Below are positions 454-16,672 of a DNA stretch of 25,506 bases, one piece after another. Below the pieces are notes generated by a model that was not told where the DNA came from, searched no databases, and worked only from the letters and a program-made list of their open reading frames with translations. The translations under genes and the position numbers were made by a program. The stretch is from positions 1-25,506 of the IMG/VR virus record IMGVR_UViG_3300045257_000103; one strand, 5' to 3'. The first letter of the stretch is position 1, and each line of letters begins with the position of its first letter. This DNA is from a virus.

Positions 454-527
454 GGGTCGCTGGTGTAAGCAACGCGTCTAGGCTCCAAACTTAGAAGTTA
501 TGGGTTCAAATCCTATACGGCCCGCCA
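454..527 (+). tRNA. tRNA-Trp (CCA), atypical copy
   Basis: Acceptor GGGTCGC/ACGGCCC has one mismatch at the inner pair, then G73 and CCA. Anticodon stem CTAGG/CTTAG encloses CTCCAAA, anticodon CCA. The D-arm is short and unusual and G1 replaces the A1 of the next gene. A second, more canonical tRNA-Trp follows 11 bp downstream. Confidence 0.82.
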
Positions 528-538
528 AATTAGTTTAT

Positions 539-614
539 AGGGATGTAGTACAATGGCAGTACGGCGGTCTCCAAAACCGCGTCAATGGGGGTTCGAGTCC
601 TCTCATCCCTGCCA
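539..614 (+). tRNA. tRNA-Trp (CCA), canonical copy
   Basis: Acceptor AGGGATG/CATCCCT, G73 and CCA match bacterial Trp identity. Anticodon stem GCGGT/ACCGC encloses CTCCAAA (CCA). D-stem GTAC/GTAC and T-arm GGTTCGAGTCC are regular. Confidence 0.93.
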
Positions 615-15903: not shown

Positions 15904-15989
15904 GGTAGGTGACCAATATGGCAAATGGAACGGCCCGATAAGCCGGGAGAGCAATCTCATCGCTGGTTCGACTCCAGCACCTACCACCA
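15904..15989 (+). tRNA. tRNA-Ile-like (GAT) with class II variable arm
   Basis: Perfect acceptor GGTAGGT/ACCTACC, A73, CCA. Anticodon stem CGGC/GCCG encloses CCGATAA, anticodon GAT, with C instead of T at 33. The variable region forms GAGA-GCAA-TCTC, a class II arm not expected of Ile. T-arm GCTGG-TTCGACT-CCAGC is perfect. Confidence 0.7.
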
Positions 15990-16003
15990 ACAAGGAAAGT
16001 GTT

Positions 16004-16672
16004 ATGAAGCGTATCATCGAAATCAAGGGTGCCGAAGGCGGAGCAGACGCCAGCCTATTCGTGCGAGACCTATCCAAGGCGTACCAGAAGTTGTTCATTC
16101 GCTTCGGTTGAAAGCATCACGTCCTACGCGACGTGTATGGCGAAGTGACTCTGGAAGTAGCAGGCGACGATCTAACAGGTCTGGACGCCGAAGCAGGGGG
16201 CCATCGCATCCAACGGATTCCACCGACTGAAAGAAAGGGTCGAATCCACACAAGCACCGTAACAGTAGCCGTCATGTCTCCCAATAACGTGAAGACCGTT
16301 GTCCGGGATTCAGATTTGAAGGTCGAATGGTATTCAGGTTCTGGAGCCGGTGGTCAGCATCGGAATAAAGTCCAATGTTGCTGTAGGTTGACCCACATCC
16401 CTACCGGAACAATGGCCACAGCACAGACCAGAAGTCGCCAGAACTCCTACAAACTCGCCAGAGAGACGATAGTCGAACGAGTGGAGTCTGCCGCAGCTTC
16501 GAAGCACAAACACGAGACATCCATGGATAGGAAGCAACAGATGGGGTCTGGGATGCGTGGCGACAAACGTAGAACCTATCGATTCCAAGATGATATGTTG
16601 AAAGACCATGAAACAGGACGCTCTGCTTCTTGTGAACAGGTTCTTGCTGGTTTCTTCGAGCTATTGTGGTAA
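16004..16672 (+). CDS. RF1-type peptide chain release factor with in-frame UGA
   Basis: A class I release factor without the N-terminal domain 1, about 222 residues. It starts MKRIIEIKGAEGGADASLF, the beginning of RF domain 2. It contains GGHRIQRIPPTERKGRIHTS, in which PPT corresponds to the RF1 PxT stop-codon reader (UAA/UAG), and SGAGGQHRNK with the catalytic GGQ. After 35 codons the frame has a TGA (16109-16111), then continues in the same frame to TAA at 16672. Aligned by eye with RF1, the UGA falls where RF1 has Trp in ARRWRVE. Readthrough as Trp, a pseudogene or a sequencing error are the options. The ATG follows AAGGAAAGTG. A start at ATG 16133 has no ribosome-binding site. Confidence 0.78.

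Follow-up and report, generated by a model that had tools for sequence, protein, structure and literature searches.

The stretch of DNA analysed here (the window, an entire IMG/VR record of 25,506 bases) carries a gene for a short, RF1-like release factor whose reading frame is interrupted by a UGA at codon 36. It belongs to a family in which recoding is needed in 157 of 160 distinct genes and never at UAA. Judged from comparison of these sequences, the recoding itself appears strongly supported, and we consider it probable that, through programmed recoding, an accessory release factor is produced in response to poor termination. The features of the window to which the text refers are as follows.

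454..527, plus strand: unusual tRNA-Trp(CCA), a speculative candidate UGA reader (ARAGORN list and comparison with relatives)
539..614, plus strand: ordinary-looking tRNA-Trp(CCA), a possible UGA reader, equally speculative (ARAGORN list and comparison with relatives)
15904..15986, plus strand: tRNA gene immediately before the release factor gene, with CCGATAA as its anticodon loop (Rfam RF00005, 39.3 bits; missed by ARAGORN)
15992..15999, plus strand: Shine-Dalgarno-like AAGGAAAG ahead of the start codon (sequence)
16004..16672, plus strand: recoded gene for an RF1-like release factor that lacks domain 1 and, with UGA read as an amino acid, has 222 residues (sequence, Pfam, structure)
16004..16108, plus strand: first half, codons 1-35, first strand and helix of domain 2 (dN/dS 0.105 in relatives)
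16109..16111, plus strand: in-frame UGA, codon 36, followed by A (UGA in 97 of 97 window-type relatives; Trp column in canonical RF1s)
16112..16183, plus strand: codons 37-60, with suppressed synonymous change in relatives; likely RNA element; in the window only a 6-bp hairpin lies here
16112..16669, plus strand: half after the UGA, with the PPT stop-recognition and GGQ catalytic motifs (sequence, Pfam)

The ATG at 16004, the TGA at 16109-16111 and the TAA at 16670-16672 lie in a single frame that is open on both sides of the TGA. When UGA is translated as Trp, the product matches the Pfam RF-1 domain (PF00472, E 4e-20), and a PCRF match (E 5e-21, profile positions 103-194 of 194) spans the UGA. 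Because PCRF is matched from profile position 103 only, and RF1 from residue about 87-112, the window product is a release factor that is missing domain 1. It carries a GAGGQ motif and a PPT flanked by Gln and His, an arrangement found in 106 readthrough genes. The structure predicted with Trp at codon 36 has a mean pLDDT of 91.8 and superimposes on ribosome-bound RF1 with a TM score of 0.92, and the closest solved structures are those of RF1. An earlier, sequence-only reading had proposed that the motifs downstream of the UGA are intact and that reading it as Trp would restore the protein, and both proposals are borne out by these matches. In the model the UGA follows the first long helix of domain 2 and precedes its next strand, so that the 35-residue fragment made by termination there has neither the stop-reading nor the catalytic parts.

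Despite its RF1 fold, PxT recognition motif and GGQ, the window factor differs from RF1 (prfA) in missing domain 1 and in scoring 181.7 bits against the NCBIfam RF1 model, far below the cutoff of 400; moreover, prfA shows no programmed recoding (PMC12421855). Domain 1 is also missing from the release factor homologue PrfH (RF-H; PMC6514570), but the window factor keeps the RF1 stop-reading motif and reaches 51.6 against the PrfH model TIGR03072, below its cutoff of 166.65. As both scores are below cutoff, the window factor, by its sequence RF1-like, would be filed neither as a standard RF1 nor as PrfH. Its best phage family is PHROG 19918, of unknown function.

A scan of viral contigs returned 350 relatives, and each of the best 80 of these has exactly one in-frame stop, a UGA in the column of window codon 36. 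The search was not biased towards stop-bearing genes, since its peptide patterns flank the UGA and the alignment scoring penalises stops. A query with the half after the UGA alone found no relatives, and an alignment query was required. Two further scans enlarged the set and, after removal of near-copies and of five ordinary RF1 genes, left 160 distinct short genes, mostly from IMG/VR and huge-phage contigs. In-frame readthrough would be needed in 126 of them (132 UGA, 4 UAG and no UAA stops) and a +1 frameshift in 31 (shifted stops 26 UGA and 5 UAG), while three (L005, L117 and L180) are stop-free. In the window subfamily the UGA occupies the identical column in all 97 genes, with no further in-frame stop. 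The short gene also occurs in four huge-phage records of Al-Shayeb and colleagues (634-735 kb), interrupted there by one or two in-frame UGAs.

Canonical RF1 genes served as a comparison. A scan of bacterial genomes gave 71 checkable genes, 66 canonical RF1 and five short; none of the 66 canonical genes has an in-frame stop, whereas each of the five short ones is recoded or frame-shifted. One of the five, L259 from a Gammaproteobacteria bin, has an in-frame UGA and a separate later frame change, which may reflect either a second recoding or faulty assembly. Trp occupies the UGA column in 64 of the 66 canonical RF1s, in agreement with the initial assignment of the UGA to a conserved Trp position. 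The Trp codon UGG is one base away from UGA; the comparison of homologues, which had been put forward as a check, shows that relatives retain UGA rather than UGG and that their downstream motifs have not decayed. Matches in 'Listeria', 'Enterococcus', 'Staphylococcus' and 'Acinetobacter' phage records were rejected as full-length ordinary RF1 genes and used as controls only; these records are probably bacterial contigs.

Isolates carry the short gene with an in-frame UGA as well. Plasmid records that contain it come from Rhizobium leguminosarum TP16, Bosea sp. RAC05 and Variovorax sp. SRS16, and three further Variovorax records gave matching hits. In Jiella sp. LLJ827 our reading of the open reading frames places it between rnhA and a peroxiredoxin gene. 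Most of the searched relatives of Jiella and of a Rhodospirillales bin are without the gene, and for this reason the copies in these two look horizontally acquired.

The frameshift relatives connect the family to prfB, the textbook case of a release factor controlled through recoding at its own internal stop. A CUU directly precedes the stop in 31 of 31, and an SD-like sequence lies upstream in 28; a typical cassette is CGGAGGGGTCTT-TGA-C, with UGAC in 18 relatives. In 30 of the 31 the CUU slip codon places a Leu in the UGA column. The autoregulatory cassette of prfB likewise consists of an SD-like sequence and a CUU-stop at which a +1 frameshift occurs (PMC5009743), so that prfB and these relatives share all three elements in a release factor gene whose early in-frame stop needs recoding. 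The window gene departs from prfB in several ways: it would be read through within a single frame, with GGT before the UGA and no slip site, its motif is RF1-like, domain 1 is missing and the stop lies within domain 2. The family departs from it as well, in that five relatives have UAG in the cassette, whereas a survey of prfB in 8,164 genomes found no UAG there and no programmed recoding in prfA (PMC12421855). A quick tree of 108 rows requires at least 12 changes among the readthrough, UGA frameshift, UAG frameshift, stop-free and canonical groups, a provisional number; given its well-supported branches, the UAG cassette requires at least four. The stop appears to be more conserved than the route past it. 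In the frameshift-type factors L171 and L012 (LR745208) the stop-recognition loop is shortened (RVQRTSNGRIHSS, no PxT), and that of L127 is similarly short; their codon specificity may be different.

Both halves of the gene are under purifying selection as protein, with dN/dS in the 97 window-type genes of 0.105 for codons 1-35, 0.26 for codons 37-60 and 0.11-0.12 from codon 61. Downstream of the UGA the sequence is under more constraint than the protein alone would impose. Synonymous divergence in codons 37-60 is about half that elsewhere in these genes and, over 39 independent pairs, synonymous change falls to 0.34 of expected in codons 37-45 (z -7.6), with a second trough of about 0.55 of expected in codons 52-63. 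An RNA element in codons 37-60 is likely. A further synonymous trough of the window-type genes, at codons 157-168, is far from the UGA and unexplained.

Viral readthrough elements of the retroviral gag-pol type consist of a stop, a short spacer and a 3' pseudoknot, and the main subclade (77 relatives) similarly has the stop and a short spacer followed by a predicted RNA structure. A helix CGCC/GGCG is paired in 86% of cells, and a second, between the loop of the first and codons 56-58, in 80.5% (slid controls 25-48%, 38 double-change cells), counts that are inflated by sequence kinship. Together the two helices would form a predicted pseudoknot, to which a plain hairpin extension is the alternative. 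RNAalifold on the 77 sequences predicted no consensus pairs, and folding energy relative to synonymous codon shuffles gave only a modest signal, with a mean z of -1.06 after the UGA in 55 representatives and down to -0.79 in other segments. Unlike the gag-pol elements, the structure here is predicted from covariation and synonymous constraint only, and that form is missing in the window, whose gene has neither main-subclade helix. A 6-bp hairpin (16118-16123/16130-16135) begins six bases after its UGA and is not stronger than in shuffles. The absence of both helices from the window counts against the mechanism that we propose, as does the higher dN/dS of codons 37-60, where synonymous change is suppressed.

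We propose the following mechanism. Ribosomes would start at 16004 and reach the UGA after 35 codons, where host RF2 would usually terminate translation and release a 35-residue fragment. If that termination is slow, the UGA would be decoded by a near-cognate tRNA, for which tRNA-Trp is the likeliest candidate, and readthrough would continue to the 222-residue RF1-like factor. Trp is likely to be the inserted residue; selenocysteine is not, as the scanned stretches have no listed tRNA-Sec and relatives have Trp or Leu in the column rather than Cys. Lower termination capacity would then give higher output, by the same logic as in bacterial prfB, and other lineages would achieve this by means of an additional or displaced in-frame UGA or UAG, or through a Shine-Dalgarno sequence and CUU-stop that direct a +1 frameshift at the same column. 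We infer the direction of the feedback, with output rising when termination fails, and likewise, from the PxT motif, that the factor reads UAA and UAG. Since PxT predicts reading of these two codons, a UGA switch would sense host RF2 and not the factor itself, unless the factor also reads UGA, whereas the UAG cassettes would provide direct self-regulation if the factor is RF1-like. The suggestion that this might be a regulatory readthrough gene, prfB-like in spirit, is supported by the family-wide UGA and by the prfB-like +1 cassette of other clades at the same column, as is the sequence-only reading in general.

The sequence context of the stop bears on how readily it is bypassed. The nucleotide following the 136 readthrough stops is A in 88, G in 26, C in 21 and U in one, and UGA-A is prone to misreading by Trp while a U at +4 reduces readthrough (PMC5289835). 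This leaky context, with A or G after the UGA, also suits the strongest rival explanation, attenuation without sensing, in which the UGA leaks at a fixed rate and keeps down the amount of a release factor that may be toxic; uncontrolled RF2, and less so RF1, indeed harms B. subtilis (PMC12421855). A weak ribosome-binding site would suffice for that purpose, however, and regulation is favoured by the recurrent use of a stop, in some cases within prfB-like cassettes, which are known to serve in sensing, so that we regard simple attenuation as unlikely.

The tRNA genes of these phages raise a second alternative, that an atypical phage tRNA-Trp or another suppressor tRNA increases reading of UGA late in infection and so activates the factor at a set time. 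Two tRNA-Trp(CCA) genes, one of them atypical, had been reported in the window and are found at 454-527 (the unusual one) and 539-614. An unusual and an ordinary tRNA-Trp(CCA) occur together in each of the window, L030 and G001, and variants of tRNA-Trp(CCA) are able to read UGA (PMC13092985). Against such a timed switch, no tRNA-Trp was found in the scanned 400 kb of G004, whose factor has two in-frame UGAs, the plasmid and chromosome copies have no phage cycle, and the frameshift clades need no suppressor tRNA. A switch of this kind is possible in some phages but not general, and as an explanation of the family it seems improbable.

Several further observations concern the tRNA complement. 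The second, unusual class of tRNA-Trp(CCA), a candidate UGA reader accompanied by an ordinary one in three records, recurs at 454-527 of the window and at L030:168-242, L342:8896-8972, L087:447-519 and L090:178-256. The tRNA at 15904-15986 ends 17 bases before the start of the release factor gene, and is context, not a proven part of the mechanism. Genes for tRNAs with a CUA anticodon (Pyl according to ARAGORN) were found at L334:13129-13203, L369:18020-18092 (minus strand), L370:8276-8349 and L370:14278-14351, and are probable UAG suppressors. They sit in two huge-phage records with a recoded release factor, where UAG stops are rare (7 of 206 and 8 of 201 long ORFs). Record L115, whose release factor has two in-frame UGAs, contains a tRNA with an 8-base anticodon loop (ccta) at 1502-1578. 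ARAGORN also reports permuted tmRNA genes in the same phages (L055, L056, L065, L083, L088 and L334:1648-2040), and in L065 and L088 the tmRNA gene adjoins or overlaps the 3' end of the release factor gene.

Existing annotation treats these genes differently. RefSeq splits the Variovorax gene at the internal stop, and a relative in a viral protein database, 164 residues long, aligns to part of the model only; gene callers thus split or truncate short recoded release factor genes. Taken literally, the Variovorax annotation would mean that the gene yields a 35-residue peptide and, separately, a shorter factor restarted past the UGA, for which the window offers a GTG at 16133. An ATG within 40 codons past the UGA is nevertheless present in only 5 of 100 genes, and just 3 of 100 have a start with an SD-like sequence in the first 25 codons, with no conserved restart, and the part after the UGA completes domain 2; we consider this reading very unlikely. 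Sequencing error, a pseudogene or global reassignment of UGA can effectively be dismissed, given that independent assemblies and finished isolate records show the identical UGA, that the sequence after the stop is under purifying selection, and that the window and its relatives use UGA as an ordinary stop.

The last point was anticipated from the sequence, and UGA ends 16 of the 40 listed plus-strand ORFs in the window. It also ends 85 of 206 long ORFs in the scanned part of G001, where a search for other UGA-interrupted genes gave nothing clear besides overlapping open frames, and is an ordinary stop in the 49-kb neighbourhoods of the four huge-phage genes. Alternatively coded phages, in which UGA is read as Trp, resemble the present case in combining a phage RF1 with in-frame UGA (PMC10746230), but the records tested here use UGA as an ordinary stop, and the internal stop lies within the release factor gene itself.

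In the open-access literature searched, which left most subscription papers and all bioRxiv preprints outside, we found no earlier account of release factor recoding in phages. Genes for RF1 and RF2 are mentioned in the huge-phage paper, and the passages retrieved from it by a term search describe no internal stop in them (PMC7162821). The genes analysed here form a large separate release factor family, widespread in huge phages and also found on plasmids, probably under control of the prfB kind through several routes, among them direct readthrough of UGA and cassettes with UAG. For further study they offer a naturally occurring collection of conserved, predicted sites of bacterial UGA readthrough, and the copies in isolates make the recoding directly testable. 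More tentatively, and with somewhat less than even confidence, we suggest that the release factors of mobile elements are a family of termination sensors, in which the internal stop is the conserved regulatory part and the route of bypass has been swapped repeatedly; for the most part an RF1-type factor would be controlled through UGA, the phage gauging host RF2 and answering with a factor of its own. The family suggests repeated evolution of a link between release factor supply and termination failure, whereby a protein that ends translation is seemingly made only when termination fails.
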